A DNA stretch of 64,000 nucleotides from Suillus spraguei (Eukaryota; Basidiomycota; Agaricomycetes; Boletales; Suillaceae), in assembly GCA_016800925.1 (NCBI GenBank), contig JABCPU010000208.1, positions 1-64,000 on the forward strand, read 5' to 3'. The notes beneath the pieces were generated by a model, which was given only the letters and a program-made list of their open reading frames with translations, did no database searches and was not told the origin of the DNA. The position numbers and the translations under genes are program-made. Position 1 is the stretch's first letter. The number at the start of each line of letters is the position of its first letter. Shown here in pieces: positions 10,705-49,872 of the stretch.

Positions 10705-10777
10705 CCATCTCCTGTCTCCCATCTCCCGTCTCCCGTCTTGTGTCTCCCGTCTCCCGTCTCCCGTCTCCCGTCTCCCA

Positions 10778-10832
<55 letters not shown>

Positions 10833-11866: not shown

Positions 11867-11871
11867 GTGGC

Positions 11872-12578: not shown

Positions 12579-12738
12579 GTGGCCCTACGTGACATACGCA
12601 AAAGCCATGCAAGCTAGCGACAACTTTCACCCACATTCACCCTTTCTTCTTAGATCATTTCATCTATGGAGATTATGTCAGCCCATGTGTTTACTAAGGT
12701 GCTGTTTGGACAGCGACTCCGGGTTCAAAATTCCGGGT

Positions 12739-21033: not shown

Positions 21034-21802
21034 TGTTAAGACCGTACTCAAGGGGTGAAAGATCTGAAGGGCTTTGGCCTCAGTTCGTACACTGTGCCCC
21101 TTGTCCGAGTAATGCCTCTTATTTCAGAGAGGAGATATATGTCCAAAGATCCGGAAGGAGTTGCATGGCGGATCCGGACATCCGAAGGTATCGGATATGG
21201 TACGTCCGAAGGTTATCCGGAGCGCGGGGATGGAAAGAGGACTAAGGCTAGCTTTGGAACAGATTCCTAACTAGAAACTGACAGAGGTAGACTATCCGAA
21301 GATAGAGTCGGAGATATAGACTAAAGGAATCAATCCCAAGTCTCAGAAGATGACTTTGAGCAGAAAGTGACTAAAGTCCGAAGGAAGCGGAATGAGCAGA
21401 ATCTAAGATGATATTCGAACTAAGGTTCTACGGAGATCTACAAGTGGTTTATATATGGTAAATATCTAAGACGGATAATCAACAAGTCTGGGACCGAGGG
21501 CTATGTATGAAGTGTAACGGAAGTCTATTAGTTAATGCGCAGTGGATCAGTAAGCACGAATCGGAAATGAAACACAGGTAACGGATCAGTGACACAGGAC
21601 AGAACTATACACAGCCGGAGTACGGAAACAGGATAAGTGACGACAGGAGATAGACGCAGATATACACAAGGGAGATAGAGTGCGAGAAGTGAGCACATTC
21701 GGATGAGCAATCCGGACAGGATCTGTGGACTGGACGGAAATAGAATCGATCGGATCTGATCGGATATGGTCGGATCTGGGATTAGAAGTATGGTATATGA
21801 CA
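21034..21802. mobile_element. Solo LTR, L1 family
   Basis: TGTTAAGACCGTACTCAAGG to GTATGGTATATGACA, 769 bp. Flanks TTGTG (21029-21033) and TCGTG (21803-21807) agree in four of five bases and are probably a decayed target duplication. Confidence 0.88.
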
Positions 21803-21909: not shown

Positions 21910-22656
21910 TGTTAAGACCATACTCAAGGGGTGAAAGATCTGAAGGGCTTTGGCCTCAGTTGTGCACTGTGCCCCTTGTCCGAGTAATGCCCCTTATTTC
22001 AGAGAGGAGATATATGTCCAAAGATCCGGAAGGAGTTGTGTGGCAGATCTGGACGTCCGAAGGTATTGGATATGGTACGTCCGAAGGTTATCCGGGGTGT
22101 AGGGAAGGAACGAGGATTAAGGCTAGCTTCGGAATGGATTCCTAACTAGAAACTGACAGAGGTAGACTATTCGAAGATAGAGTCAGAGATATAGACTATA
22201 GGAATCAATCCCAAGTCTCGGAAGATGACTTAGAGTGGAAAGTGACTCAAGTCTGGAGGAAGCAGAATGAGTAGAATCTAAGATGATATTCGAACTAAGG
22301 TTCTACAGAGATCTACAAGTGGTTTATATACAGTAAATATCTAAGACGGATAATCAACAAGTCCGGGACTGAGGCTATGTACGAAGTGTAACGGAAGTCT
22401 ATTAGTTAATGCGCAGCGGATCAGTAAGCACGAATTGGAAATGAAACACAGGTAACGGATCAGTGACACAGGATGGAAGTATACACAGCTGGAATACCGG
22501 AAACAGGAGGAATGATGAAAGGAGATAGACGCAGATATACACAAGGGAGTTAGAGTGCGAGAAGAGGGCACATTCAGATGGTGATCCGGACAGGAACTGT
22601 GGACCGGATGGAAATAGAATCGATTGGATCAGAGATCAGAAGTATGGTATATGACA
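21910..22656. mobile_element. Solo LTR, L1 family, inside an exon
   Basis: TGTTAAGACCATACTCAAGG to GTATGGTATATGACA, 747 bp, with a perfect CCATC duplication (21905-21909 and 22657-22661). It interrupts a reading frame that is otherwise continuous. Confidence 0.93.
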
Positions 22657-23208
22657 CCATCGCAACATCAGAGAAAGATGGTATGAGCTGGAGAAGAAAT
22701 TGATCTGGTGCCAGGAGCATTTGGGTGCTGGGATGTTTGTTCCATGGGACACCGTACTCCCACGGGCTCCAGCTATGTTGGGGTATCTTCATTCACATGA
22801 GAACGCCAAACTCGCTATAAAGATTGCACTAAGGTCGCGCAACGCATTTTTATGTACGTTAATCTCTATTCCTATTGTATTGTGACTGACATTTTTCTAG
22901 TAATCGCGGCTGCCTGTACATGGCACATTATGAGTCATCAATATTGAGGATCCAATTGCCCCTTGGATGTCCATCTTGACCAATGACCGCAAGTGCCCCA
23001 TACTGGCTGAATGGGTTCTCGAACTATTGCGTTCATTTGTAGGAGATCTTTTGGCCGATGTTGAATGCACTGGAGTGTTCATCTCCTCTACCCATCTGGG
23101 TCTGCTGCACTAAGGATGCGCCTGTTGTGGACCCTATGTTGCATCACTACATTCCCTCCTGGGAAGCCCTTGCCTCTGCAACTGCACATATTACAGTGAA
23201 CTATCTCC

Positions 23209-23720
23209 GTATTATATGAGTGAACGGATGTGCATAATATCCCATATGATACAGGCCAGTGGACCATGGCCCATGGTAGAAATATCCTCGTTGATGACGG
23301 ATGGGCCGGGAGGAATATTATTCCCGATGACAGCAGGTGGGCCCATGCAAGGAATATGTAGAGTAGATGAGTGGGCCGATGTACATGAATATCTGGTAGA
23401 TGGATGGGCCGAGGTAGTTGGATATCATGTAGATGGTGTATCAAGGTAGATGTGAATCAAATAGACAGGTATGTGAAGGGTACTTGTTATCACATACACG
23501 GGTGGGCCCAGACACATATTAAATAGACAGGTATTAGACGGGTGAGCTGAGAGTGTTATATAAATATTTATTAGATGGGTGGGCTGAGGGTGTTGTACAG
23601 TATATTATATTAGACGGGTGGGCCGAGGGTGGTATAAAATATAGATGGGTGGGCCCATGTGTATGATAATGGTAGACATGACGAGCTGAGGGAGTTGCAT
23701 ATCATCTGAATCAGAGAGGT
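23209..23720. repeat. Left inverted minisatellite arm of the 15.7-kb block
   Basis: Irregular 30-60-bp units contain GACGGGTGGGCCGAGG or GATGGGTGGGCCCA followed by AT-rich TATATTA spacers. The reverse complement of the same family fills 38380-38890. Outer ends also agree in inverted order: CATAATATCCC, CCTCG(A)TG(T)TGACGGATGGGCC and GGAATATTATT(T/C)CC occur in the same order at both sides. Confidence 0.8.
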
Positions 23721-23734
23721 AATAAATCACAGTT

Positions 23735-24505
23735 ACTGAGTTCCCGGAGCAGCAGGTGCTGTCTTGAAATGGCCTTTTATGGCGCTTAGGTTGTCTTGTA
23801 GAATGTGGAAACTGGGGTGCGAGGCTTGTGTTGCCCTACAAGACACCCAGCTCCGACCCCCGAAAATCAGATGAAGCATACCAAGTTCCGAGTTCCGAGA
23901 CCCAGGTCTCGACACATAATTCAGTCAATATGAGACACCCAGTTCCGACCCCCAAATTTGAGTGAAGCATACCAAGTTCCGGGAGCAGCAAGTGATCTCT
24001 TGAAATGGCCTTTATGGCGCTTAGGTTATCTTGTAGAATGTGGAAAGCGGGGTGCGAGGCTTGTGTTGCCCTACAAGACACCCAGTTCCGACCCCCGAAA
24101 ATCAGATGAAGCATACCAAGTTCCGAGTTCCGAGACCCGGGTCTCGACACATAATTCAGTCAATACGAGACACCCAGTTCCGACCCCCGAAATTTGAGTG
24201 AAGCATACCAAGTTCTGGGAGCAGCAAGTGATCTCTTGAAATGGCCTTTATGGTGTTTAGGTTGTCTTGTAGAATGTGGAAAGCGGGGTGCGAGGCTTGT
24301 GTTGCCCTACAAGACACCCAGTTACGACCCCCGAAAATCAGATGAAACTTACCAAGTTCCGAGTTCCGAGTTCCGAGACCCAGGTCTCTGCTTGACATGG
24401 CCTTTTATGGTGCTTATGTTGTCTTGTAGAATGTGGACACCAGGGTGCAAAAGTGGTTGCCCTATGAGATGCCAAGTTTCCGAACCTGGGTCTCGACAAA
24501 TGAAT
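23735..24505. repeat. Tandem repeat of about 236 bp, three to four copies
   Basis: GAGCAGCAAGTGATCTCTTG recurs at 23747 (variant), 23983 and 24219, with a partial unit from about 24376. Each unit also contains GTTGCCCTACAAGACACCCA and GAGTTCCGAGACCC. Open frames in it are repeat artefacts. It directly follows the left inverted array. Confidence 0.9.
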
Positions 24506-24789
24506 ATCAGATATCCAGCACACTTCCAATCATCTGGTATTTCATTGAGCAATGGATGATAATACAGCTTTGAAAGCCAATATCATCCAAGGTTCCCTTA
24601 TCTGATCCTTGCTATCTCCACCCCCTTTAACACCAAAGTCTGGACATCCAGCATTCAGCATCTGATTTCCCAATATCAACTTCCAACATGAACACTTCTT
24701 CCATGTCCACTTGTGACATAAAAATCTGGTGCACTTGGGCCCTGGCCATCACTCATGAAGCAGGGCATATACCAAACAAAAATTCAATG

Positions 24790-25991
24790 CAGAGAAGACT
24801 GGAGGAGAACCAGTTATACCTTCTCCGAACCTGGACACTGATCTGGTGATGGCGTGCGATCGCTTGGCTGATGTACTCAAAAGGCATATAAAAATCCCAG
24901 TGGGTCTTCCTGCAGATGTTGAAAATGTGTTTGATCATTCAAATTCCTTCATGACAGTTAAGATGCAGATTGATATTGCAAGATATAGCAAATTGATATC
25001 CCCAAAGAAACACTGGGCATAATGAGGGGAAAGAGGAGAAGTTGCTTGAGAGGTGTCCTCCTGGCCATGAGGGCACAAAGTTGGTGGACAAACCTGCCAC
25101 AATTATCGATGTTTCCGGTACCATCATCGCATGGTACCTTCCGGATGCCCTGACCGAGACCACCCAGGTGCATAATGTGTAGATTGTTACTCAATGGATA
25201 TTGAATATCAAATGGTACCTACAGAAGGAAATCAGGGCGGCCACCGATTTGCTGGGTCCAAGCCTCAAAAAAGTGTAAAGGCTGATGGAAATTGGCGATA
25301 TAATCAAGAATGGTTCAGACAGGGCTCGGAAAATGTTGGGTCAACTCCTGGATGCATCAATTTATCTCCGGCATGGTTTCAACAGGGCCACGAGGTAGGA
25401 TGTGATGAGATGGTGATTTCTGGAGTCAAACTCACCAATCCCATAGAATCTGTCAGATCTGGAGGTATCTGCATCATTGAAGGGACCCTCCTCCGAGAAT
25501 ATCCTGAAAGCTATTGCAAGGCCGGCAGCCACCGCATTGGTGGCACTCAGGGTCATGCATCCTCAGCAGTATTTTGCAGGGTTACGAGCCTTGTCACACC
25601 TCGGAGATAAGGCACTGAGCAAGGAACTGCCACAGATGCCAGAGACCCTGCAGTACTGGGCATCTGTGTTTAACAGCCTCTCCATCATTTCCAATCGGAA
25701 ACCCCCAATCATCGAGACCATTTATCGATTCCTGAATGCTTTGATATTCTCACCACCATGGGGAACTATTCTAAAGCTCGGATGAGTATGCCAAGCCTTC
25801 AGCTGGAATTCAGGTATGATTCCGGCTGTATGATTGCATTTTTGGAAAGAATTGTGAGACATGGGGTTGATGGAGTGGAAGGGGACCAGATTGCTTGGGC
25901 ATGGTATATGAGGGATTCTGTGCACATTTATGCCGGGGTTCCCTCATGTGGATGGGCTATGGTTGAAGGCCGCATACTAACCACGGTGTGA
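24790..25991 (+). pseudogene. TET/JBP-family 2-oxoglutarate/Fe(II) DNA dioxygenase relic
   Basis: Plus-strand pieces in order: LVMACDRLADVLKRHIKIP (from about 24826), ERCPPGHEGTKLVDKPATII then AWYLPDALTETTQ, WRYNQEWFRQGS with TPGCINLSPAWFQQGHE, ALRVMHPQQYFAGLRALSHL, WASVFNSLSIISNRKPP, then HRDHLS, MPSLQLEFRYDSG, VRHGV and WAWYMRDSVHIYAGVP. NR-x-P-x-HRD carries the HxD iron ligands and RHGV the distal His, as in fungal TET/JBP proteins that oxidise 5-methylcytosine. The metal-binding residues survive, but single-base shifts at about 25015, 25267 (A-run) and 25708 (C-run) break the frame; they may be decay or assembly error. Introns are likely (CAG/GTGCAT...CTACAG). Confidence 0.72.
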
Positions 25992-26089
25992 AAGATCAAA
26001 GAAGTTGAAAGAGTTGTTACCCATGTTAGTAGCAACACACGAATACCATGTACCAATTAGAGCATCAACAGTTCTGGAACTCAAGTCAG

Positions 26090-27190
26090 AAGTCGAGTTC
26101 CATGAATTGAGTCCCTAACTCTGTGTATCTCAGGACTCGGGACTCGATACTCAAAATTCGGGACTCAATGATTGATAGTCCGAATTCAGGCTTGACACTC
26201 GAGACTCAGCAAAGTGTGAGGCAGCACAATGGGAGGCAACACCACTTTGATCCACACATTTTGGACTGGCCGAACACTGAACCCCGGCAGCCGGCACTCG
26301 GGACTCGGGACTCAGAATAATGTGCAAGTCATTGATCCACACATGTTGAGGGCCGAACTCCGAACCCCGGCAGCCCAGCAGCCGGTCAGTCGGGACTTGG
26401 GACTCAGAACAATGAGAAAGATATTGATTCCTACATGTAAAGTGCCAAACCCGAATGCCGAACCCTGGAACCCAGAACTCGGCACTCGCATCCAGAATCA
26501 TGTGAAATTTAGTGAGCCACCATATGTTAAGGGCTGAACCCCGAACCCGGCAGCTGGCAGTTGGACTCGGGACTTAGAACAATGTGAAAGATACTGATTC
26601 CCACATATCAAGTGCCGAACCCTGGCAGCCGGAACTGGGACTCGGGACACACAACATTGGTGAATGATATAAATGCACACATGTTAAGTGCCGACTGCCG
26701 AGCCCCGGCACGCAGAACTCGGCACTCGGCACTCAGAATAATCCACACATGTTGAGTGCCGAACCCCAAACCCGGCAGCCGGAACTCGGACTCACAACAT
26801 TGTGAATAATATTGATGCACACATGTTAAGTGCCAAACGCCGCCGAGCCCCAGAACCCGGAAACTCGGCACTCGGCACTCAGACTAATGTGAAAGTTATT
26901 GATCCACACATGTTGAGTGCCGAACCCCGCACTGTCGCACAGATATCTATTTCGTCTTGAACCTTGAGTGCTGAACCCCAAACCATGAAATCCAGTAGTC
27001 CACAATTTTGGGGTTCAGGGTTCGGTACCTAAGATTCGTGACTTTGCCACTCAGAAATATGTGAGGCAATCTTGCCATTCGGAAGTCGAGTCCCATGAAT
27101 TGAGTCCCAAACTCTAAGTACCATGGCACTTGGGCATTCGCCACTCAGCATTTGGGATTTAGGACTCTACATCCGGATCTTGACATCCAG
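26090..27190. repeat. Satellite-like array, copy 2
   Basis: Same family and orientation as 1-905 (GTGAAAGATATTGATCCACA, GTGCCGAACCCCG, ACTCGGGACTCAG). From about 26950 the sequence matches 660-960 almost base for base and leads into the KDZ unit. Confidence 0.85.
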
Positions 27191-27402
27191 TCCTCGAAAT
27201 CTGGAACAAATATTTGGGAGTCAAGACAATCATTTGGACAGAATAAATATTTTACATCATGTATGAAATGAAGACATTCTAATCTAAACACAGTGAAGAG
27301 GACTCCACTCCCCTGCCTCTCTTCAATCTCTGTAGCATGTCAGTGTACATCTTCACCTCTGCCATCTTCTCATGGATACCCTCATCTTGCTCCTCCATCA
27401 AT

Positions 27403-27717
27403 GCTACCAGGCATGCTCAATCATCTTAAGTCCCATCACTGATGGGCCTGATGAGTCATTTACCTCCTCAGGAAGAACCAAGCCATCATCCTCAACTCCA
27501 TTTTCCATCCAATGCTGGTAGTGAATGACACAGGACCTCATGATCTGACCCATTGCCATGGTTCATTCGGAATTTCGGTGTGTCCCATCCACCATGGAGT
27601 ATCATAGCTGGGAATAATCCGGGATGGATGTCCCGGAGCTGCGACATCATCAAACTGACATAGGTGGGATGAAAAGATGTGGTCTGGAACAGTGTTCCAG
27701 GTGAGCATGGGATACAA
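27403..27717 (-). pseudogene. Broken copy of the unidentified ORF at 1141-1455
   Basis: Nearly identical to 1141-1455, but one base is missing in a C-run (CTGACCCATT against TTGACCCCATT), which shifts the frame. The function is unknown. Confidence 0.45.
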
Positions 27718-27850
27718 TGTCAGGACATGAGCGACGGGGCTTGGAACAACAGAAACGATGTTCCTTGCAGCTGAGTACTGCAGGAGTGGCGTAACAAATG
27801 TCTGTTGGAAATCTCAGCATTGCCCAAAAAAGTCAGCCGTCATCCGGTAA

Positions 27851-30164
27851 TCAGTCACTTACATTGATCTCCCATTGCAGCCCGGCTTTAAAGTACATGA
27901 TCCGGGCAGAAGAGGGAGGGTTGTTAGCAGCCTCCATCTGATATTGAGAGATACATGCGCGGATGCGCGATGCAGCCATATTCAAAGTACAAGAAATATC
28001 TTGAAGGTTCAGCTTCATGGGTTGCCAGTGATGTCCAGTATTTGGAGTGCCAGATGTAGATGCAGGAGTTTCAGGCATGGCTAATGCAAGAGTGTGACGC
28101 TGGGAATGACACTGACAGATGGTGAAGAGCTGATGATATGAGTCACTGATGGATGGATTAGAAATTCAAACTCCGACATGGGCTGACCCGGACAATTCCC
28201 GGGACTCAATGTTTGGGTGTCAAATATGCGTTTCATTAGCAAAACAAATTCATTCATGTGCACCATCGATCAACGAGGCTGCAGGTCTTGAAATGCTGCC
28301 TGTGCATCCTGAGCTAGTAAGGAATACATTTGAGACTGCCTTCCGGCATAGCATGCATGACCCGGAAGTTGTTTCAACAATGATTCCTGCATCCGGGCAC
28401 CCCATTGGGTTGCCTTCCACAAGAAAAAGTTGCACGTCCAATCCATCTCTGATTGCACCAATGATATTTCTTCCATCCATCGATCTGTAGTGCCTTTGCC
28501 CAAGCCAATGAACTCGGTAAACTTGGGATGGGTCCTGTCAGCTCACCACGGAATATATCAAGCATGCCCGAACTCACATTCCTCATTCCACGAATTTTCT
28601 GGACCCTCCATATCGACTTCCACTGACCAGAACCAAGCGAGGGACTCATTTCGCTGACCTCGGGTGTTTGGATTGCCGATGGCAGTGCTGATTTTGAGCT
28701 GCTCGCAAAGCAGGGGTTTGTATTTCTGAAGCTGGTCTGGCCCCAGCTCAAGTTGTATCATTTGCTTCCTGGTTTTTGTATATATACTGGCAGTAGGGAT
28801 ACTGCCTGCTGCACTGATGTCACCTGGGACCACGCTCGAGTTTTTAGGGCTTGATATTTGGCTTGCCTAACTGTTGTTCGGAACAGGATAGCCTTGTTGC
28901 ACAAGTGAATGCGGAGATTGTGCAGGGCATCATTGGCCTGCCCTTCACGAAGGGACATCTCCAACGGAATCAGATCCTCTGCCATACAGCGTCTGCAATG
29001 TTCAACCCCGAGGTTTGATGGCAATGGAATTATGGTGAGCTCAGGGGAGTTTGTCCATGCATCAGATGTCTCGGTGAAATCTGCCGGGTCATCATCGATA
29101 TCATCAAGAATATCTATGTTCAAGTTGTCAGGATCGTCATCTGCATCAAATCCCTCTCCCAGATGCGTAAGAGCAGACCGAGTGAATTCATCTATCTAGC
29201 CTTGGATACGATCGCGTTGCCGGGCGATATCTAATCTCTGTGTCTCCGTCGATCGTCTTCCAATTCTGCGAACCTCGATGAGCAATGCAATTTGGACCTC
29301 TTCAATTGCCAACCCAATGGATATCCATGTTGCCACAGATCTGCGAGAGGGTGCTGCATGACGGGCATTACCCGCTTCTAGTAGTCTAAGCTCAATCTCC
29401 TTTTTGCTTGGTGCTAAGTGAAAAATGAATGCGGAGCTCCACGGAGACAAAGAATGTTAACTTACCCTTCTTGATATTGATTTCATCTAAATCCATCGCC
29501 ACAGGATCCCTGATTCTCTTGGACTAAGCGACCATCTTGCTGGCTAAACCATTGTGTCTTTAAATTGCCGGGTGCAGCTTCATCAAGTCTGTCGAAAGCC
29601 TTGCCACTTTCAGTGATGCCATTCTTCGCCAGCTTGTATTTCCGGCAAAGAGTCCTTTTCATGCAGATCATCTTGCAGAAATTGGAATCATTCATCTGAT
29701 AATCAAGACATTCCTTTCAGTGTGGGGATGACATTCCCCGAGCGGCAGGGGAAATCAGGTTGAGATGCGCCCATAGGGTCTCCATGATCTCTCCATCAAT
29801 CCGGCCAATGCCTTCAATAAATTTGAAGCATATCAGACATAGCAACTGTCCTGATGTCCATGCACATGCCACAACCCGATTCCAGGAATGATGGTCAGTT
29901 CCGGTACCATGTCAAGGTATCGGCTTCGTTGACTCCTGCAACAGCCCATGCAATAGAGAGGCTCGCCAAGACAATCTTGACATTTGTAGACCCCATCCTG
30001 GTGGCAGATGATGCATCTCCTGTCTTCTGGTGGAGCTTCTCGATCCAGGAGGTGATGCAGATATGATTCCTGCCTTGGCAGCCATTGCCTGAGGTAGTCA
30101 TTTTGACTCTGCATTTTTTATATTTAGCTATAGTTTGAATGACACTCCAACATTTATGTAACAT
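27851..30164 (-). pseudogene. KDZ transposase deletion derivative with CxC2 cluster, copy 2
   Basis: Reading right to left: QSQNDYLRQWLPRQESYLHH, a Cys cluster (CIICHQDGVYKCQDCLGEPL, then YCMGC) that is the CxC2-like KDZ-associated domain, then LDMVPELTIIPGIGLWHVHG HQD, ETLW, SGKAFDRLDEAAPG, an acidic stretch with DDIDDDPADFTET, NDALHNLRIHLCNKA, and the C-terminal LAWFWSVEVDMEGPE and WKATQWGARMQES. The CxC2 cluster is joined directly to the post-catalytic region, so the whole DDE core is deleted. Frames change at about 29500 and 29200. This is a non-autonomous derivative. Neighbouring exons at 49873-50277 represent part of the missing region from another copy. Confidence 0.82.
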
Positions 30165-30664
30165 GAACTTGCCATGGTTTTTGGGAGTTGCAATGGCTCA
30201 AATGAGCCTTGGTCTTGCTCATAAGTATTGTCAGGAAAGTCATCCCAAGGAGGTGGTGCCTGAACAGGCTGAAGTGTTGGTGATTCTGGGGGAGAGTGAG
30301 GCATGGACCTGTAGGCTCATCGTCTCGTGCTTGCAAGTGGGACCTTGACCCAAATCTTTCTACCTTTGCTGCCCCTTGCTTCTACCCTGTGGGATTTTTG
30401 CAATGGGGTGCATCTACCTATCTTCATCTTATTTTATAATGCTAATGTTGCAAGCAAAGCATCTGCTCAGGTGGAATGAATTTTTATTACATTGTGGTGT
30501 CATACTGTCCTGCCGACTCATTACAAATTTATGTCCATTTATGGCTTCGGGACCAATATAGCTCAATTAAGCTACTGTTAGGCTTTTGTCAAAGATCAAC
30601 TTCTGACAATTCATTCATACTTCCACCTTGCTTATCCTCAGCCCATTCTGCAATTTGATTCACC

Positions 30665-32526
30665 ATGGCAAGGACGGGTCATTCCACTCACATGACTTCC
30701 GGCAGAAATAGGGCACGTCAACCACAGACACAGAAGCTCACGGAAAACGAAATTTCGGAGTTGAAGAACTACCTTCCTGAGTGGACCGCGGCCAAAAGGG
30801 GTGAGAAGCGGGGGGTTTTCACTGCAATTGCCAGGGCAACCAGGTTGTTTGCTCCTAAAGTCGACCAAGGACAATGGAAAAAGAGGAAGCAGGTGATGCG
30901 TCTCCGTTGTGTTGAAAAACTACAATTTTAACATCTTATTCTTCCATCAACTCTCAGATGTATAAGACTTGGTTGTTCAACAACAAGAAAAGGAAGGAAA
31001 GGAAGGACATGATAAAGTATGGGAGGAAATGGACGCCTAGGATGGTGGTCTACCAGCAGAAGCGCGAAGAGGTGCTAAAGAGGATTGAGGACGAGTCCGG
31101 GGCAAAGCCGGGAGATCCCAGTATGTTCAAACATTATCAGGGGGCTGTGAAGAGAGTCATGGCTGAATTGGACGATGACAAGTTGGAGAAGGCAAAAGAA
31201 ACAGCGGAAGAATGGTCAAACAGCTTTCCTCCTCTGGAGATACAAGCAGAAGTTGCTTGTAAGAAGGGACCAGCATATATGGAGCACTTTTCGAAAGAGA
31301 TGTGGAGGCAATGCGGGATGAGAGTTTTTGTGTTGTCAGCTTGGAAGAATGAACAGGGAGAGGTTCTGTTCGGGATGTAAGTCAATTGTGTCCGTCATCG
31401 CCGATCTTCGATCTCAATATATGTGTGCAGGCATGATGATAATGAGGCATTAGGAGATGGGGACAGCTTCATGAAGACAAAGGACTGGGAGGACATTGAG
31501 CCAGTATGGCAGGAGTACGCCCAGGAACAGTTCGGTGAGTGTTTGAACTTTGGATGCAAGAATGAATTTGTTGATCATCACAATGATAGGTGCCAGGGCA
31601 CAGGACAGAGGACGACAGGTCAAGGGAGGTCGCAAAAGAGTCAGAAAACCAGCTTTTGAACTCGACACAGATGGAAATGGGATGCCGTTGCTTCCAGACA
31701 TCACGGAAACAAAACTTGAGGAGAAGAAAGCCATAGTCAGGGCGTTTCTTACATCGCACTACAGTGAGTCTTTCGTGGCAACATCCGAGATGTTGCTGAA
31801 TGCGTGGACACAGGAATATGTTCTGGGAATGACAAGGCTGTCGTGCCATGGAGTGCCCTCGTACAAAGTCAGGATGACTTTGTGGCAAGGAAGTATCTTC
31901 CGGCGGATATTGACCTGAAGGAGCCTTCGAAGTTGCAAAACTGGGACACAACGGCCTTGCTCAATTTCTGGTATGCTCAGCAGGAAACAGGAAAAGATTC
32001 AACATTCCTGTTCAAAGCATGGAAGAACAAGGATGGGGACATGGTACCATCTGTGGTATCCGGCAAGTCGCCATCGCGTCTGACTCGTCAAGTGAGAATG
32101 CAGAAGAGTGGAACTCTCTGAAGGCCCCGGGATCCATCAACCGAAGCCGAGAGTGATACCGACAGTGAAACTCATGACAAGGAGGATGACATTGATGATG
32201 ACTCAGCTGACGGTCGATCCCCACTGAAGAAACCCAGATGAATAGCACATCCATCTTCAGCACCCAAGGAGACAGAAGTTCCATGTTCAATGCCGGAGCC
32301 TCGCCCGGCCAGGCCGGCCAAGGCAGGTGCACTTTTGACATCACGGATGGGTGACCTCCTGGCCGGGTTGACTGAGGAAGTGGAAGAGAGGAACACATTG
32401 CCAGAACCAAGGAGTATACAGGGCAAGAAAGCTGTCATTGAACCATCCGCAAGGACCACCTGGAGTAAGTCTCAAAAGCCGGTAGAGAGTACACTTCGAG
32501 TAACCAGGGCAAGGGGAAGGAAATAA
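30665..32526 (+). CDS. Uncharacterised multi-exon protein of an expanded basidiomycete family
   Basis: Exons 30665-30892, 30958-31376, 31431-31534, 31590-31763 and 31814-32121 join with consistent phases. The protein starts MARTGHSTHMTSGRNRARQ, has a basic N-terminal helical part (WFNNK-like WLFNNKKRKERK, RKWTPRMVVYQQKREE), EMWRQCGMRVFVLSAWK, then DSFMKTKDWEDIEP, LEEKKAIVRAFLTSHY and SALVQSQDDFVARKYLP, and ends near SGKSPSR. After 32075 the frame is lost: an acidic tail (SDTDSETHDKEDDIDDDS) with a KKPR cluster and a last frame to 32526 (ending RVTRARGRK) continue with shifts and one TGA. I recall similar proteins in many copies near KDZ units; their role is unknown. Nuclear action is a guess from the basic clusters. 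Confidence 0.6.
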
Positions 32527-32827
32527 TGTACATATACCAAACTGCCCCCATGTTTACCACATTTTCATCATTTGTCACACTTCTCAAAACACAGTGTCCC
32601 ACTTCCAAAATGTTGAATCCTAAGCACCGAGTTCTGGACAAGTCCTGATCACCGAGTTCCGGACGACTCCCGATCACCGAGGTCCGGCACCCAGGTATCA
32701 ATCATTGGTAGTTGGTATTAGAGATTAGGGTTTGTGCATCATCTAAAATAAATTGGAAATGTCATTGTTATACATGAAAAATTCAGTGGTGAACATGATG
32801 TAAGTATGTGAATGAATATCCAAATAT

Positions 32828-33844
32828 TTACATATGGGGTTGATCATCACACTTTTCAATGAGGGTATCTAATACAAGCAGCAATTCAGAGCTCATCTGT
32901 TTGGCCCTTTGCAACCTCCGGAGGTCCATATCAGCTCTTCTGAGTTTGTTGGATGTGTCAGCCCAAGCCACTCGGAATGGTCGGTCAGCCTCGAGGAGTT
33001 GATGTACGGTAGGCTCCGGAAGATGGCCATGACGCTGTTGGTAATGGTCCAGGCGATCCAGAATTGATTCAACTTCAAGAAAATTAGCAGAAAGATACAT
33101 GATGAACAATTAAATGCTCACATTCTGTTTGATCATATGACCCTAGGGGCATGAACTCCCTAAGCATGGCACGCAGGTCTTCATTGCTGAGTTCTGGTAT
33201 GGGGGACTGACATTTAGGAGGTGTTGCATGTGCTTGGAACATCACATCAACAATAAAAATGAGATGGTATGAATGAACTCACCTGGAATTGCTATTCCTG
33301 GGATAGCCGAAGCATCAATCTCAACATCAGCACATTCCGGTGCTTCATCACAATCAATAAGATCATCATCAGGCCCTAGGTACAAGTCCGGATCATTGAA
33401 CAAAGGCAGTTCCTCAGGCTGAGCCGGGCATAAATGATCTGGATGGATTGAATGAACATCCACAGTTGGATTATCTAAATGTGAATTGAGAAACCTACCA
33501 GGAACTGCATCCAAGACATCCGGAACACCTGATGACCCAGAATCATAGTCGATCTCATCATCCGGCCCAAGGTATACATCTTCACATGGATCTAATAAAT
33601 GTCCAGTCAATTGTAAGATACACTCAAAGCAACACATACCTGATGAAATCCGGGACTCAGTCTCATCATCCGGCCCAAGGTATACATCATCCAGTGCATC
33701 TGGTCCATCTCCGGTCAATTGAGAGCTGTACTGAAAGCACAACATACCTAGTAAAATCTGGGAGTTGGTTGAGTCATCCACATCCATTGAGTTGTATTCA
33801 GTGACCAGAGGTTCATAAAATCTGACTGCTGGTTGAGATCTCAT
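32828..33844 (-). CDS. Uncharacterised acidic protein with repeated YLGPDDE motif (three exons, 305 aa)
   Basis: Exons 33844-33283, 33232-33122 and 33072-32828 join with exact phases (918 nt including the stop); introns are 50 and 49 nt. YLGPDDE or YLGPDDD occurs three times within residues 55-155 in an Asp/Glu-rich, low-basic region. Residues about 190-225 (SPIPELSNEDLRAMLREFM) and the C-terminal LEADRPFRVAWADTSNKLRR segment look helical and could form a coiled coil. No known domain is recognised. It is transcribed away from the gene at 34063 and toward the gene at 30665. The intact splice structure suggests it is or recently was functional. Confidence 0.62.
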
Positions 33845-34062
33845 GATGTCTGATCAACTGATCAAACTGATTGATAACTGATAACTTCGAAGTTCAACAC
33901 ATGGCTGGCAACGGCCAAAAGTTGAACCACGACCAAACAAAGACAAACAATCAACGCTTATCAAGATCGTCCTTCAATTGTCTGGTTTCTTTTGAAACTT
34001 CATCCTAGTGATAACAGATTTCAAACTTATCTCAAGCTTTCACATCTTTCAACTCAATCCAA

Positions 34063-36201
34063 ATGTCTACTCCAGTTCAAACCTCTTTGGCCGGTCTCAA
34101 GGCAACCACTGCTCAGATTGTGGGCATCATCGCTGGGGCGCAGCTCATGCCTGCTGGCAATGGCCAAGCCCACCTTGCTCTGACAGCACAAGTCACTAAT
34201 CTTGTGGTAAGTACCATTCATGTGTTAATTTTACTTTTGGTTTTTCTAAGATCTGTTTAGGCTGAGATAGTCAGGGAGCATGAGAAAGGGCCTTACATGC
34301 CCGGCATCATTGCATCCTGCTCCAAGGAGTTGATGAGAGTCAGGTCCATGACTCCCCGGGTGTGGCCCAACTGGCACAGCATCGGCCATGACGACCCCCG
34401 GGTGTTGAAACACTCCTGGCACAGCAAGATTCGCGCCTGGGAGGCTTTAGGTGACCATTCAGTTGATCTCCCTGTCATGCCTAACCCTTCCATTGGCCCA
34501 ATCACTGTGTACCTTCCCTCCCCACCCGTCGTCGCCGGCAATGTCGCTGGTTCTTCCACCCATGCCACCTCCGAGCTCCAGGACAAAGGAAAAGGTAAGG
34601 TGGTTGTTGCTGACCCAGAGCCGGAGGTGGAAGGGAGCAGGAAGAGGAAGTCCCCCATGATGTCTGGACACTCTTCCTCACCTCTGAAGTCGGCCAAGAA
34701 GGGTCACAAGCGGGTCAAAGCAACTTGCCATGTGAAGCAGAAGGTGCTTGTGGAGTCGGAAGATGATGAAGACACAATTGTTCAAGTATGTCGTCCAGCT
34801 CATTGTTTTCATTCTCTCAATTTTCTGTAGCCTATTTCGAGTGGAGTGCCGGCGCTCAACGTTCCCTGGCCTTCCACAATTGGTGTAGGGACGCCTCATT
34901 CCCCTCGTTCACCACGTTCCCCAAAGAAGCAATTGTTTGGTCCTGCTTCAGTAAGTAATATTTAGTTGTCCGGCACTTGGAAAAATGCTTATATATCATC
35001 AGCTCATTGCCGGCAGTCCACCCAAGGTGATGGTGAGTCATCATTCTTTGTCCGGACCTCCCGCCTGTACTTACCCATTGTCAGGCCACCTCCGGCAGTT
35101 GTCCGGAGGTCATTGAGACTCCCCAGGCAACGTCCAGCACTCTGGCGGAGGAACCTGCAGTCATGGATACAGGTGATATTCTCATTCCCGGCCCAGTGAG
35201 TACTCTAATGAATTCCAATGAGTCCATCAACTAATGAAACCCACAGAACAACCCCTGCCATTATTACACCCAGGAGAAGTGGCCCTGCACCACTCGGTTG
35301 GACAGGAGGACCTGTGCCCCATGTTTGTCGTGCGTCCGCTGCGCCACCAAGAAGATCAAATGTGTCCCAGCATCCATGGGATCCCCGCCAAAACGTATTT
35401 GAGGGAAGTCTACCACCTGGCAGGCTCGCTCCAGGACACCTTCCAGAGCTCCCTCCAATGTGCCAGCTGCCTCGCAGTCCAAAGCCCGAACTCGCAGTCA
35501 ATCTCATGGCCCCTCCGGCACTCCAGCTGTCCCTGCTGTGACCACACCCAAGGCACAGTCCCGTGGGTGCAGCAAGACAATCACTGCCCCCAAGACACCT
35601 GCACCTGCATCAGCTTGTGAGTCACCCCAGTTGTCTATGACCATCTGACCTTATCTTTCACTTAGCTATTCCATCTTCAAGCGCCGCAGTGCCTCGTCCG
35701 GCACTCGATGTGCCCATGCCGGATCTCCATTCCATGGCAATTGCGATTCAGGATGGTGCCGCTTGAATTGCTCTTCTTGAGGCTCGTGTGGCAGAGCAGG
35801 ATGGTAAGATTGATACCCTGCAACGCCTCCATGAGGGCCTTCATCGCAAAGTCATGGACCGGCACCCTTCATTTCCACTTCCCGACTCTCCTGTCAATGC
35901 AACCTTTTTGCTTGATCAATCTGTCCCCCTGTCCATCTCACCCCTCCCATCTGCACTTGCTCCCCTCATTGACTTGGATATGGCAGGAATGGAGCCTCCG
36001 TCTCTGAAAGTCCAGCCAGCATCTATCATTGAGGGTCTCATATTTGAGCTGAGCCAGATTCAGCCTGAGGGTCCACAAACATCCGGCAAACTTGTGGACC
36101 CAGATGATCCGGGCAACCTTGTCCCAGAATATGATTCTGATGATATGGATGTTGAGGTGAAGGTTGAACCCTCTGCTGATGAGGGTGAAATGGCTACATA
36201 A
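34063..36201 (+). pseudogene. Uncharacterised multi-exon protein with CxxC...CxxC cluster and coiled coil, two in-frame TGA
   Basis: Exons 34063-34206, 34261-34785, 34831-34950, 35085-35195, 35247-35616 and 35666-36201 keep phase. Segments: MSTPVQTSLAGLKATTAQIV; a basic SRKRKSPMMSGH and KKGHKRVK stretch; a cysteine cluster CAPCLSCVRCATKKIKC; a coiled coil LEARVAEQDGKIDTLQRLHE; and an acidic end. The C-x2-C-x2-C-x2-C-x6-C pattern with Lys resembles a small zinc-binding or DNA-binding module, but I do not recognise the family. TGA codons at 35400 and 35764 lie in frame; the second sits where AARIALLEARV is expected, so CGA to TGA is likely. The gene may be a recent pseudogene. Confidence 0.55.
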
Positions 36202-36389
36202 GTGTATGTTCATATATGTATATACAATGTTTGAATGAATGTCAGTGCTGGATGCCAAGTCCGGAAATCCGGAACTGGACAATGGAGATTCACAATGGAT
36301 ATTTCATGAATTCCGGATATCCGGCTACCTGAAATACAACACACAATTTAAAGAATTTGAAACATATCTGTCAAGTTACCTTGTGCCGG

Positions 36390-38235
36390 GTGCTGGGTCA
36401 CATTGTGAAACATATCATTCCATATATCTTAAGTGCCGAACCCCGGACCCCAGGACCCTGGAGTTGGGACTCATCACCATGTGACAGATATCGATCCACA
36501 TATTTGATGTGCTGAACCCCGAACTCTGGCACTCGGGAGTTAGAACAATGTGAGGCAATACAAAGATATTGATTGACACATGTTCAGTGCCGAACCCCGA
36601 AGTCCGGCACCCGGCACTCGGGACTCGGGCCTTGGAACTTATAACAATGTGAAAGATGTCGATGCACATTTTCTATCACTGAACCCCGAACCCCGGCACC
36701 CGGGAGTTAGAAACATGTGAGGCAATACCAAGATATTGATTTACACATGGGGAGTGCTGAACCCCGAACTCCGGCTCCCGGCAGTTGGGAATCTGGACTT
36801 GGGACTCATAACCATGTGAAAGATATCGATCCACATATTTAACCACCCAACCCTGAACCCCAGCACCCCGGAGTGAGAACAATGTGAGTCAATACAAAGA
36901 TATTGATGTACACATGTTGAATGCTGAACCCCGAACTCCGGCACCTGGCACTCGGGACTCGGGACTTGGTACTCATAACAATGAGACAGATATCGATCCA
37001 CATATGTTAACACCGACCCCCGAACCCCACCACCCATGAGTTAGAACCATGTGAGGCAATACAAAGTTGAGTGCTGAACCCCGAGCTCCGGCGCCCTGGA
37101 GTTAGCACAATGTGAGGCAATACCATGATATGGATTTACACATGTTGAGTGCCGAACCCTGAGCTCCGGCACCCGGAGCTCAGGGTTCGGCACTCAACAT
37201 GTGTAAATCCATATCATGGTATTGCCTCACATTGTGCTAACTCCAGGGCGCCGGAGCTCGGGGTTCGGCACTCAACATGTGTAAATCAATATCATGGTGT
37301 TGCCTCACATTGTGCTAACTCCAGGGCGCCAGAGCTCGGGGTTCAGCACTCAACATGTGTAAATCCATATCATGGTATTGCCTCACATTGTGCTAACTCC
37401 CAGGTGCCAGAGCTCGGAAGTCTGGAGTCCCGAGTGCCGGGTGCTGGAGTTCGGGGTTCGGCACATAAAATATGTGGATCCAGGTCTTTCACATTGTTTT
37501 GACTGCCGAACCCCGAGCTCTGGCACTCAGGGTTCAGCACTCAACATGTGTAAATCAATATCATGGTCTTGCCTGACATTGTGCTAACTCCCGGGTGCCG
37601 GAGCTCGGGGTTCAGCAGTCAAAACAATGTGAAAGACCTCGATCCACATATTTTATGTGCTGAACCCCGCACTCCCGCACCCGGCACTCGGGACTCCGGA
37701 CTTCCGAGCTCCGGCACCCAGCACTCGGCACCCGGGACTTGGTACTCATAATGTGAAAGATCTTGAGCAACATATTGTCAGTGCTGAACCCTGAACCCCG
37801 GCACCCAGCACTCGCAACTCGGGACTCAGAACAATGTGAGGCAATAGACACCTATTGATCCACACATTCTAAGTGCCGAACTCCGAACTCCGAAATCTGG
37901 TAGTCTACTATTTAGGGGTTCGCGGTTCGGTACTCGGGCTTTTGCACTTGAGACCGAAAACAATGTTAGTCAATAACATGACTTTGATCCACACATTTTT
38001 GGTAGATATCTTTTTCATCTCAAATCTCAAATCTCGAGTGCCAAACCCCGAATCCCGAAATCCGATAGTCTACAATTTCGGGGTTCGGTCCTCGGGACTC
38101 AGACACATGTCAGGCAACAACAAAACTTTGATCCACACATTTTTGGTAGATGTCTGTTTTGTGTCGAATCTCGAGTTTCTAGTTTCTAGTTTCAGTACTC
38201 TGCACCCGCACCCGGCACCCGGCACCTCAATTATC
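36390..38235. repeat. Satellite-like array, copy 3, with a switch of orientation
   Basis: The same unit family as 1-905 and 26090-27190. Units run in the original orientation up to about 37170, in reverse from 37173 to about 37620 (TGTAAATCCATATCATGG and CTCACATTGTGCTAACTCC repeated about four times), then in the original orientation again. Confidence 0.9.
37066..37276. repeat. Nearly perfect 104-bp inverted repeat with 3-nt loop
   Basis: Arms 37066-37169 and 37173-37276 are reverse complements except for one T-G position (37075/37267). The loop is CAC at 37170-37172. It lies at the left orientation switch of the satellite array. Confidence 0.95.
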
Positions 38236-38379
38236 AATAAATGTCAGACATGATGAATTCAGGTTTTCGTGCTTCAGGGTTTATATTTTGGTGGTTGATG
38301 GTAGGTATATGCACTCATAGGGTGCATGTATCCTATGTGTTTGATTCTCTGGTGGCTACATCAGCTGTACGTCTTTATG

Positions 38380-38890
38380 ATACATATCTAGGCCCACCCG
38401 TATATGTAATATATTTTACCTCGGCCCACCCGTCTATGTAAAATTCCCCCACATCGGCCCACCCGTCTATGCAATAAATATTTTACTGCACCCTTGGCCC
38501 ACCCATCTATGTAATACACCCCACGTCGGCCCACCCGTATATGTAATATTCTCTCACCTCGGCCCACCCATCTATGCAATAATATTTGCCTTGCATCTCT
38601 CTTCAGCCCAGCTGTCTATAATATCCTACTCTACATACTACCCAGATGGGCCCACCCATCTCTGTCGGGGATTATATCCCCCTGGCCCATCCGTCAACAT
38701 CAGAAATCATGTTTCCCTCGGCCCACCCGTCTCTCCCGAAAATACAAGTCTCCCAGCCCACCCGTCTCCATTGGAAATAATATTCCCCCTGGCCCATCCG
38801 TCAACATCGAGGATATACATGACCTTGGCCCATCATCTGCTGGCCCATCTTTGACGGGATATTATGTGGGTCGGGTGACCCGTATAGTAC
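38380..38890. repeat. Right inverted minisatellite arm of the 15.7-kb block
   Basis: Units TCGGCCCACCCGTCTATGTA plus AT-rich spacers, reverse complement to the left arm at 23209-23720. The outer end GTACTATACG (38890 to 38881, minus) resembles GTATTATATG at 23209. Outside it the DNA is the chromodomain end of a gypsy element. Confidence 0.8.
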
Positions 38891-38911
38891 AGAGTTTGTC
38901 ACTGAAGGGGC

Positions 38912-41900
38912 TCAGTTCTTCAAGTTCTTTTCTGGGAGCCACTTGTTATTTCCCAATGAATATCCTTTCCAGGAAACAAGATAGCGTCGGCGAATGCCGG
39001 TTCCTTTGTGGGACAGAATTGCTTCTACTTCGTATTCTTCTTCTTCTTCAATAATATCAGGTGGTGGTTCAGGGAAGTTTGGGCCGTGTACGTCTGTTTT
39101 GCTATAGGACAATAAGACAGAAGCATGGAAAGTGGGATGAATTTTCCATTGTGGGGGGAGTTTGAGCGTAAATGTGATAGGTGATAAGACATCGATGATC
39201 GGGAAAGGTCCATATCATTTTGGTGCAAGTTTCCGTGGTGGGAGTTTGAGTCTAAGATTAGCAGCAGATAGCCAGACCTTATCTCCAATCTTCCATGGGG
39301 TATACTTTTCTCCTCAGGATCGTTCAGCCATTGTTTGCATCGCAAGGTTATGGCAGGTGATTGCTTCTTCTCTTATCTTCTGCAGGGATCATACTCGATC
39401 TTCTGCTGCAGGGACAGATGAGTCGGGGATCAGGTGAGGGATGGCGCGTGGTTCGTATCCCATCATGAGATAGAAAGGTGATGCATTCCTTGCATCGTGT
39501 TTTCGGTGGTTGTGGACAAATTTGGCGATTGGTAAGTGTTCTACCCAATCTTCAGGGTTATTGTGGCAATAGATGCGTAGGTACGTTTCTAGCTCTTGAT
39601 TGAGCTGCTCAGTTTGACCATCAGTCTGAGGGTGATAAGCCGTAGATGGGGCGATGACGTAGTCGAGAAGTCGGGCAAGCTCCTTGGAGAAGCGAGATAG
39701 GAATTGCGGGCCTTGATCCAAGATGACTTTGTCATGGAGTCCAAATCGACGATAGACGTGTTTCAAGAATAGTTTGGCAATGCCTTTGAAAGTAACAGTT
39801 TTCAGATAAGGGATAATAATTGCCCCCTTCATAAGGCCATGGTCTACCATGACCATGATACTATCAAAGCCTCCAGAGACAGGGAGGTCAGTGATAAGAT
39901 CGACAGAGACCTGAGAAGGTTGAGTCGCAGATGAGGGGATCGGGGCAAGTGGAGGTCGAACAGGATGTGTATCCGCTTTCATTTGCTGACAAAGGGCGCA
40001 ACCCTCTACGTATTTCCGAATATAAGAGCCCATAGCGGGCCACCAGGCTTCTCGTTTGATGAATTCTTCAGTTTTGAATCTACCGGGATGTCCTGCAGTG
40101 GGATGATCATGATACCTTTTCAGGATATCGGGACGATGTGCCGGTGGAATGTAGGCACGATTCTTAAAATAGAGGACGTTCTCCTCAATTTTCCAATCAG
40201 AGAGTGCCAACTTCATAGGGGGAAGACACACACCATCAAGGGCATCAGATGTGGTCTTGAAGACAGGGTCATAGAGGGGGTCAGAGGATGATAAAACATC
40301 CTTCAGGTCAGTGTCAATAAGACGAACGAATAGAGCGTCAGGGAGGAGGGTCTGGTCCTTGTTATCATCTTTGCCGGAGTTGTAGTCGGGTCGGCAAGAT
40401 AGTGCATCAGGTACTGCGAATTTAGTACCTGCAACGTGATGCAGTTCAATGTCATAAATAGACAAATCAGTTGCCAATGTGCTTGGCGACGGGTAAGCTC
40501 CTGTGCACTTCTAAAGTACAGAAGATTCTTGTGGTTGGTGAATACCAGGACGGGGTGCAGGTTTCCTTCAAGATAATGACACCATTCATTCAATGCCCGG
40601 ATCACGGCAAGGAGTTCCCGATCAAAGATCTGGTAATTGTGTTCTGCAGGATTCAAAGACTGTGAGAGATATGCACATGGGTGATAAACACCATTCTCAT
40701 TGGTCTGCAAGAGAACTCCACCAGTTGCCACAAGCGAAGCGTCGGTAGCAATAGCAAATTGTCGGGAAGGATCAGGGTTATGGAGTACCGGTTGGGATGT
40801 GAAGCATCGTTTCAGTTCTTCGAAGGTGTCCATACATTCGGTTGACCAATCAAAGGCCTTATCTTTCTTTGTCAATTCGATAAGGGGTCGGGCGATGTCA
40901 GAGTAGTGGGAAATGAACGTGCAGTAGAAGTTACAAAAACCGAGGAATGACTGGACTTCTTTTACAGATTTCGGTGTTGGCCATTCGGCGATTCCTTTGG
41001 TTTTGGCGGTATCCATAGCAACTTGTCTGGGGCGAATTATCATTCTGAGATATTCCACTTCTTCTGCATCGAAGGTGCATTTCTCCAGTTTCAGGAACAA
41101 ATGTTCCTTTTGTATTTTCATCAAAACCCGTCTGGTTCATTCACGGTGTTCTGCCATTGTTGTAGAGAAAATCAGGATATCGTCCATGTAGATAACCATC
41201 CATCCTTCATTGATTTCCTGTTGGAAGGTACAATTCATGTATGCTTGGAAAGTTGCTGGGGAATTACAGAGGCCAAAGAACATGACGTTCGGTTCGAAGA
41301 GGCCGAATTCTGTGGTAAATGCTGCTTTCCAATGATCATCGGGATGGATGCAAATATTATTATAACTGGATCGAATATCCATTTTCATAAAGAACTGTGC
41401 ATTGTGAAGGCGTGCAACAAGGGAAATAGGAAGTGGGAGCAGATAAGCATTCTTGACTGTCCAATCATTGATGTAGTGATAATCTTGACAGGGACGCAAT
41501 TCTCCACTCTTCTTTCCCACAAAGAAGAGACACTAGCTTGGGGTGACTTTGATTCTGAGATGAAGCCTTTCACAATGTTTTCATCAATAAATGTTTTGAC
41601 GGCAGCGCGTTCTTTTTCTGATAGCGGGTAAACCTTAGATGTGTGAGGGATAAAACTGGGTTTAGTATCAATTTGATGATCAATACCGGGTCGTTCAGGA
41701 GGTAACTTGTTTGATCTGTCCTTAGCAAAGACATCTGCAAAGTCGTGCAAATATTCTGGGACCAATTCTTCGAAGGTTTTCTTTTTCTTTTCCTTCTCAT
41801 CCATGGCGAATTCTTGAGCTTTGTTACTGTATTTCAGGGGAGGAAGGGAGACTGTAGAATAGATGGAGAGTTGTTCGAGTTGGGAAGTTCCATCACGTGT

Positions 41901-42025
41901 AAGGGGTGTATCCATGAATACTTCTTCGATGATTCTCATGCTAACTCCGTCGGTGTCATATTTCACAAGGAATTCTCCATCTCCAAGCTCGTAAGAGGAA
42001 ATTTCATGTACTTCTGGTGCATGCC
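38912..42025 (-). pseudogene. Ty3/gypsy pol remnant with chromodomain, copy A
   Basis: Minus-strand order: linker DGVSMRIIEEVFMD (41960), RT with YMDDILIFS (about 41185), RNase H (FDRELLAVIRALNEW, about 40640), integrase zinc finger (HDHPTAGHPGRFK, then CALCQQM), integrase core (VDLITDLPVSGGFD, LDQGPQF, TAYHPQTDGQTEQLN) and a chromodomain (EVEAILSHKGTGIRRRYLVS, WKGYSLGNNKW). Frameshifts near 40470 and 39420 and a TGA near 41136 inactivate it. SDRG is LDQG here, whereas copy B keeps SDRG. Gag and protease are lost at 42025, where an LTR of another element begins, and the 3' end is cut at about 38891 by the inverted array. Confidence 0.9.
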
Positions 42026-42774
42026 TGTCAAGACTGTACTCAAGGGTAGAGAGATCCGAAGGGCTTTGGCCTCAGTTCGTACACTGTGCCCCTTTCTCGA
42101 GTATTGCCCCTTATTTCAGGAAGGAGTTATTCGTCCGAAGACCCGGAAGGAGTTGCGTGATGGATCCGGGTGTCCGAAGGTGTCGGATATGATACGTCCG
42201 AAGGTTATTCGGAACGTAAGGAGAGGACAGAGATTAAGGCTAGTTTCGGAATGAGTTCCTAACTAGAAACTAACGGAGATGGACTATCCGAGGATAGAGT
42301 TGGAGGTATAGACTATAGGACTCAATCCTAAGTCTCGGAAGGTGACTTAAAGCGGAGAGTGGCTTAAGTCCGGAGGAGGCAGAATGAGTAGAATCTAAGA
42401 TGATATTCGAACTAAGGTTCTACGGAGATCTACAAGTGATTTATATACTGTAAGTATCTAAGACGGATAATCAGCAAGTCCGGGACTGAGGGCTATGTAC
42501 AAAGTGTAGCGGAAGTCTATTAGTTAATGCACAGCGGATCAGTAAGCATGAATCGGAAATGAACACAGGAAACGGATCAGTAACACAGGACGGAAATATA
42601 AACAGCCAGAGTACCGGTAGCAGGAGAAATGACAAAAGGAGATAGACGCAGATGTACACAAGGGAGTTAAGGTGCGAGAAGTGAGTACATTCGGATGGGT
42701 GGTCCGGACAAGATCTGTGGACCGGACGGATATGGAAACGATCGGATCTGAGATTAGAAGTATGGTATATGACA
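42026..42774 (-). repeat. 3' LTR of the L1 element
   Basis: Same family as the solo LTRs at 11872, 21034 and 21910. It is preceded on the element strand by the polypurine tract. Confidence 0.92.
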
Positions 42775-49094: not shown

Positions 49095-49144
49095 GATATG
49101 GGATGGTTGCTAAGTTACTCGGAAAGGTTTGAGTTCGAATATAC

Positions 49145-49872
49145 TGTTAAGACTGTACTCAAGGGTAGAGAGATCCGAAGGGCTTTGGCCTCAGTTCATA
49201 CACTGTGCCCCTTTCTCGAGTAATGCCCCTTATTTCAGGGAGGAGTTATTCGTCCGAAGACCCGGAAGGAGTTGCGTGACAGATCCGGGTGTCCGAAGGT
49301 GTTGGATATGATACGTCCGAAGGTTATTCGGAACGTAAGGAGAGGACAGAGATTAAGGCTAGTTTCGGAACGAGTTCCTAACTAGAAACTAATGGAGATG
49401 GACTATCCGAAGATAGAGTGGAGATATAGACTATAGGAATCAATCCTAAGTCTCGGAAGGTGACTTGAAGCGGAAAGTGGCTTAAGTCCGGAAGAGGCAG
49501 AATGAGTAGAATCTAAGATGATATTCGAATAAGGTTCTACGGAGATCTACAAGTGGTTTATATACTGTAAGTATCTAAGACGGATAATCAGCAAGTCCGG
49601 GACCGAGGGCTATGTACGAAGCATAGTGGAAGTCTATTAGTTAATGCACAGCGGATCAGTAACACAGGACGGAAATATAAACAGCCAGAGTACCGGTAGC
49701 AGGAGAAATGACAAAGGAGATAGATGCAGATGTACACAAGGGAGTTAAGGTGCGAGAAGTGAGTACATTCAGATGGGTGGTCCGGACAAGATCTGTGGAC
49801 CGGACGGATATGGAAACGATCGGATCTGGACGGATATGGTCGGATCTGAGATTAGAAGTATGGTATATGACA
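49145..49872 (-). repeat. 5' LTR of the L1 element
   Basis: 728 bp, ends TG...CA. The sequence after it on the element strand (GTATATTCGAACTCAAACC) would hold the primer site; its tRNA partner is not identified. Confidence 0.9.

Follow-up and report, generated by a model that had tools for sequence, protein, structure and literature searches.

In Suillus spraguei, a block of repeats and genes framed by inverted arms was analysed in the first 64,000 nucleotides of contig JABCPU010000208.1 (assembly GCA_016800925.1); this whole stretch is called the window. Very probably, the block represents a large DNA transposon of the KDZ superfamily with a TET gene, present here in a defective copy; in its behaviour the transposon comes closest to Kyakuja. 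Sharp common ends, 7-bp target-site duplications, empty related sites and a fixed order of the KDZ transposase gene and the neighbouring gene A show that TET, KDZ and additional genes belong to a single large element. On these grounds, the proposal of an earlier sequence-only reading that the block is a large cargo-carrying mobile element holds for the family. The window copy itself, however, is defective and its flanks do not match.

Ends, target-site duplications and empty sites

The outer limits of the element were placed by comparing copies with unrelated flanks. In the window they lie at 23185 (CACATATTACAGTGAAC...) and 38913 (...GTCACTGAAGGGGCTC). The sequence-only reading had recognised the inverted arms but set the boundaries at 23209 and 38890; the true left end is 24 bp and the true right end 23 bp further out. 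A genome check for other copies with the same ends covered 22 left-right pairs. All 22 start with CACATATT and end with GGGGCTC. One left end outside these pairs (L006) has T as its first base.

Aligned with the right 540 bp in reverse complement, the left 540 bp yield a local score of 129. Among the controls, the maximum was 34 when 3-base blocks were shuffled 200 times, and the same-strand comparison scored 21; this confirms that the arms are inverted copies of each other. The inverted match is in register from position 10 at both ends (72% over 150 bp), and the outer words follow the same inverted order in both arms, as had been noticed before. Structurally, the arms combine imperfect terminal inverted repeats (TIRs) with subterminal repeats. 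Both ends are abundant: a 20-mer of the left end has 296 genome matches and one of the right end 281 at up to two mismatches, compared with 0 and 1 for the reversed controls. The search with the arms gave 587 left and 606 right first-look candidates, of which 40 each were scored. In the other scored full-length copies, identity amounts to 96-97% for the left arm and 90-96% for the right arm.

Target-site duplications were examined in the same 22 pairs, i.e. 20 with flanks fetched, the window copy and a copy on contig C758 (11 long and 11 short pairs). An exact 7-bp duplication was found in six of them: C1, C337 and C236 among the long pairs and C297, C336b and C368 among the short ones. No pair matched at 8, 9 or 10 bp, and permuted flank pairings did not yield any match of 5 bp or more. 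In addition, the flanks of the six duplicated insertions were joined and compared with sequence collected from the genome. For four of them (C1, C337, C236, C336b), a related repeat runs gap-free through the junction and contains the 7 bp once; the C336b alignment has a 1-bp gap 36 bp from the junction. Three of the four empty relatives are located inside the window (2843-3354, 49039-49529 and 3311-3751). They are related repeat copies, not empty alleles of the same locus. The joined flanks of C297 matched only their own flanks among the sequences compared, so no empty site is claimed there, nor for C368, whose matches lay beyond the 60 listed.

Gene content, gene order and selection

The copy on C758 measures 17,359 bp; it runs colinear with the window copy and has about 1.25 kb extra at window position 29928, which bears out the description of the window KDZ gene as a deletion derivative. 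It encodes a KDZ domain above the cut-off (PF18758, E value 1.5e-26) and CxC2 (PF18803, E value 1.8e-25). Among the 615 relatives of the KDZ protein, 120 were listed: 117 from Suillus, one from Pisolithus and two without a name. A 20-mer of KDZ has 174 genome matches and one of gene A 156 at up to two mismatches (reversed controls 0 each).

Places were taken from the first 100 matches of each 20-mer search, so counts of arrangements are lower bounds. In at least 56 of 79 gene A places (exact matches listed for contigs up to C690), KDZ lies 0.5-4.5 kb to the 5' side on the opposite strand, and at none of the 79 was KDZ found in any other arrangement within 4.5 kb among the matches listed. This fixed side and orientation substantiates the suggested co-occurrence of gene A with KDZ. 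The spacing is as short as in the window in only three of the 56 pairs, the window included. Of 42 listed gene A places (contigs up to C421), a left end lies on the expected side in at least 21 and a right end in at least 17; among the matches listed, the ends were otherwise arranged four times (left) and once (right).

Gene neighbourhood was also compared between species, using the locus tags of listed relatives (120 for A, 120 for C, 118 for KDZ), a distance of six tags and 1000 shifted sets as null. A and C lie this close in at least 13 pairs from eight other Suillus species, each pair on a single contig (null mean 0.18, maximum 2). For A and KDZ, at least five pairs from three species were found (null mean 0.23, maximum 3). 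One S. plorans gene model (P0349) joins CxC2, KDZ and Tet_JBP.

The TET/JBP gene of the window was called a relic before and is indeed broken, with a piece of 542 bp left. The C758 copy contains Tet_JBP (PF12851, E value 9.3e-15), and its best match among solved structures is CcTET (E value 5e-23). It has kept the HxD motif as well as Ser and Asp at the CcTET positions 331 and 337. AG-type TET/JBP proteins are characterised by HxD, Gly or Ser at 331 and Asp at 337 (PMC12730594). By these residues, the protein of the C758 copy is of the AG type and a predicted 5-methylcytosine oxidiser. A TET 20-mer has 168 genome matches at up to two mismatches (reversed control 0). The TET piece was compared in 20 copies, namely 18 fetched ones, C758 and the window: 12 are open with the motif and eight are not, C1 among the latter.

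Selection was assessed by comparing in-frame with shifted-frame changes by Fisher tests that treat variants as independent. In the 20 TET copies, the in-frame ratio of non-synonymous to synonymous changes (dN/dS) is 0.42, compared with 1.21 and 0.83 in the shifted frames (p 0.015 and 0.11). Judged from these copies, TET shows in-frame purifying selection. For gene C (30 copies), the in-frame dN/dS is lower than that in the shifted frames, both when all changes are counted (p 0.025 and 0.0006) and when CpG-type changes are left out (p 0.001 and 7e-6). By the same kind of comparison, gene C shows in-frame purifying selection, too.

The three further multi-exon genes, A, B and C, are present as had been read, gene B on the minus strand. 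Gene A has 190 relatives, and the 120 listed are all from Suillus. An AlphaFold2 prediction based on 28 Suillus relatives has a mean predicted local distance difference test (pLDDT) of 39.9 and a predicted template modelling score (pTM) of 0.24. The gene A profile yielded a single meaningless match (E value 0.077) among solved structures, and a search of viral contigs 130 pattern matches, none of them confirmed. Gene C gave 240 first-look candidates in the genome, 40 of which were scored. It has 192 relatives, and again the 120 listed are all from Suillus. Its profile has no match among solved structures. Domain scans of A and C revealed no recognised domain above the cut-off; the cysteine block of gene C is conserved and resembles a fungal zinc cluster below the Pfam cut-off.

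In gene C copies, C-to-T or G-to-A changes occupy about 6% of CpG cells compared with 0.1-0.2% at other C or G. Decay at CpG is about 30-fold faster than at other C or G. This means that the family has been methylated at CpG despite its own TET gene.

Table 1. Features of the element and its copy in the window, with strand and remarks.
Feature	Position in window	Strand	Remarks
Whole element, 15,729 bp	23185..38913		Ends common to 22 left-right pairs, flanks differing; C758 copy colinear
Left end-specific 9 bp, CACATATTA	23185..23193	+	First base C in 22/22 pairs
Left TIR, outer best-matching part	23194..23342	+	72% over 150 columns vs right end
Left subterminal repeats	23300..23656	+	Seven GRTGGGCY sites, 7/7 on plus strand
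236-bp tandem repeat, 2.7 copies	23739..24370
TET/JBP catalytic part, frame-shifted here	25447..25991	+	Window piece 542 bp, broken
First satellite array, units of about 75-87 bp	26541..26930
KDZ transposase remnant	28250..30197	-	About 1.25 kb missing at about 29928, by alignment to C758
Gene A, multi-exon, premature stop near C-terminal end here	30665..32526	+	40 scored genome copies, 95-100%
Gene B, acidic protein, several small exons	32828..33844	-	Frames in window and C758
Gene C, zinc-cluster-like cysteines, heptad-like stretch, acidic tail; premature stops here	34063..36201	+	Copies 92-97%
Second satellite array, inverted copies inside	36453..37840
Right subterminal repeats	38391..38850	-	14 GRTGGGCY sites in right arm, 13/14 on minus strand
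Right TIR, outer best-matching part	38756..38904	-	Same alignment as left TIR
Right end-specific 9 bp, AAGGGGCTC	38905..38913	+	End comparison among copies

Short relatives and the state of the window copy

For contigs up to C417, 99 left ends were listed. At least 29 of them are followed 1-22 kb downstream by a right end in the correct arrangement, and in eight cases a right end lies in one of the three alternative arrangements. Of the 29 pairs, three have a right end in common with another left end. The pairs fall into a short class of 16 (4.4-11.1 kb), none with a listed gene A, and a long class of 13 (15.7-21.7 kb), eight with a listed gene A. The short element C297 (11,006 bp) was compared with C758: the 25 best matches comprise 529 bp at the left end, about 1.9 kb at the right end and satellite, and none falls within KDZ, TET, A, B or C. 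Translated pieces of C297 of at least 85 aa did not resemble any of these five genes either. C297 retains only ends and satellites and therefore looks non-autonomous. Exact 7-bp duplications in three of the 11 short pairs with flanks fetched likewise make the short pairs look like non-autonomous relatives. The sequence-only reading had held arms without cargo to speak for a chance cluster. Such arms do occur, as the 16 short pairs without listed gene A demonstrate, but their duplications lead us to read them as non-autonomous elements. Between its ends, C297 contains satellites and, identified by eye, two inverted, nearly identical mariner-like pieces (element positions 6620-7720).

The window copy is dead: TET is frame-shifted, KDZ has a 1.25-kb hole, and A and C contain premature stops. 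Its flanks, GCAACTG and AGTTCTT, are mismatched and do not form a duplication. As the copy is defective and its flanks are mismatched, a simple insertion is not shown for it. On its right, the copy is flanked by the interior of a Ty3-like element, on its left by unrelated repeat DNA also found on contig C1192. Two copies of the Ty3-like interior, 38914-42000 and 62830-59743, are 89% identical over 3.1 kb, and the transposon's right end cuts into the first. The second satellite array was found where it had been described. Its alleged uniform orientation with the first array, however, is only partly true: it contains inverted self-copies (37066-37169 vs 37173-37276, 99% complementary).

At the left edge of the window, a satellite array like that of the element (10-661) and an exact KDZ 20-mer on the minus strand (2638-2657) were noted; a second copy of the family is therefore probably partly present there. 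Elsewhere in the genome, two gene C copies lie in opposite orientation 2.8 kb apart on contig C1175 (5457-7614, plus strand, and 10437-12593, minus strand), and C1069 has a similar pair. These opposed pairs suggest recombined or head-to-head elements. The window also contains a long terminal repeat-like sequence in tandem at 21034-21759 and 21910-22633 (91%) with further copies at 42025-42774 and 49145-49872, and an array of (TCCCGTC)n with about 72 units (10703-11207).

Related elements, alternative readings and meaning

The link between KDZ and TET, which the sequence-only reading treated as prior knowledge, is already published. Iyer and colleagues reportedly connected KDZ transposons with TET/JBP genes in basidiomycetes in 2014. 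TET-bearing Kyakuja (KDZ) transposons occur in Agaricomycetes, with Boletales among the orders named (Kojima, 2025, PMC12730594). Here and below, PMC12730594 and PMC12810828 are compared as far as their consulted sections go. Kyakuja generates 7-bp duplications, and its families in L. bicolor have 5'-CA..TG-3' termini without TIRs (PMC12730594). The Suillus element shares the KDZ transposase, an AG-type TET/JBP, the 7-bp duplication and the 5'-CA start. In contrast to Kyakuja, its right end reads ...CTC instead of ...TG, it has imperfect TIRs plus subterminal repeats, and it carries three extra genes that these sections do not mention for Kyakuja. Since it agrees with Kyakuja in the duplication and disagrees in the ends, it is regarded as a Kyakuja-like KDZ element and not filed as Kyakuja. 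The suggestion that boundaries and gene set are new agrees with this, as inverted ends and the genes A, B and C differ from Kyakuja as published in these sections. Suillus is not named in the main text of PMC12730594, whose family table may name it, and a search of the literature collection used here found no paper naming both 'KDZ' and 'Suillus'.

TET-bearing IS3EU and PHISTA elements of Pucciniales are also DNA transposons with one extra protein, an alpha-kinase in IS3EU and an unnamed third protein in PHISTA (PMC12730594). They differ in transposase superfamily, duplication (6 bp or TA), TET type (PU) and accessory genes. KDZ1 of Cryptococcus neoformans, whose mobility was shown experimentally, is likewise a large KDZ element (about 11 kb) with 241-bp TIRs and a cysteine-cluster transposase (PMC12810828). 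Unlike the Suillus element, it has 8-bp duplications and CxC1 instead of CxC2, and TET is not mentioned for it in the consulted sections (PMC12810828).

Other element classes were considered and set aside. Zisupton needs an 8-bp duplication, and none of the 22 pairs matches at 8 bp. Helitrons are not known to generate target-site duplications, so the 7-bp duplications in six of the 22 pairs rule them out. Giant elements of the Starship type have a tyrosine-recombinase captain gene. No such domain was detected in ten translated pieces of C758, a scan that did not cover the element in all frames. Given the 7-bp duplication, the inverted ends and the KDZ domain, a tyrosine-recombinase element is not favoured.

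In intact copies, the KDZ transposase would use the terminal repeats and the subterminal repeats of the GGGTGGGCC type to pair both ends, and would move the element by cut-and-paste. TET/JBP may oxidise methylated cytosine on the element and oppose CpG silencing; that an element-borne TET counteracts CpG methylation was proposed in PMC12730594. A, B and C would be accessory genes of the element, with C as the best candidate for DNA binding, and shorter elements with the same ends that lack KDZ, TET, A, B and C might be moved in trans. A more specific idea, which we consider unlikely, is that A, B and C form a dedicated anti-silencing system with TET, in which protein C binds the subterminal GGGTGGGCC repeats and recruits TET to the ends. 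Plant Vandal elements encode sequence-specific anti-silencing proteins (PMC12730594), and the role imagined for protein C follows a similar logic.

Several observations weigh against a mobile element with functional cargo. No transposition was observed. The 7-bp duplication is absent in 16 of the 22 pairs, window and C758 included; this perfect-or-absent split would fit later recombination between copies or a chimeric assembly. C and KDZ lie within six tags in only two pairs, one of them across different contigs; this is no more than the maximum of 2 in the shifted sets. One of the two shifted-frame comparisons for TET remained at p 0.11. Within the zinc block of gene C, none of the shared variants is synonymous and 10 are non-synonymous, every one of the CpG type; this argues against selection on the block. 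For gene A, the in-frame dN/dS of 0.46 (14 copies, three exons) is not significant (p 0.59 and 0.39). The last exon of gene B has 7 synonymous and 43 non-synonymous singletons, but its copies are poorly aligned, which spoils the test.

Could A, B and C be captured passengers with no part in movement or expression? The undecided selection tests of A and B, the lack of a recognised domain above the cut-off in A or C, and short elements that move without these genes would agree with this. On the other hand, gene C displays in-frame purifying selection, A and C were kept together in eight other Suillus species, and the counts of A, KDZ and TET (156, 174 and 168) are nearly equal. We regard passengers as possible, if rather improbable. 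It is very unlikely that A, B and C constitute a separate mobile element that became joined to a KDZ-TET transposon or nested inside one. Although A and C adjoin in species without a listed KDZ neighbour, none of the 79 listed gene A places has KDZ otherwise arranged within 4.5 kb, and no separate ends were noticed around A-B-C, though no systematic search for them was made. The probability that separate repeats and host genes merely cluster by chance between two similar minisatellites is negligible. The window copy lacks a target duplication and has mismatched flanks, and arms exist at many places without gene A; yet common ends and a fixed gene arrangement oppose such a cluster, and the colinear second copy, the duplications and the empty sites lead to its rejection.

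The Kyakuja-like KDZ element is a sharply bounded, TET-bearing transposon whose left and right ends each number about 280-300 in the genome of one ectomycorrhizal fungus. Its accessory genes persist across the genus Suillus, short partners have its ends in common with it, and the function of these genes can now be addressed. If the anti-silencing idea were true, it would amount to sequence-targeted demethylation of the element's own family. The strong CpG decay in the family copies shows that methylation does reach the family. The element opens a direct way to examine whether a transposon-borne TET shields its own family from methylation.

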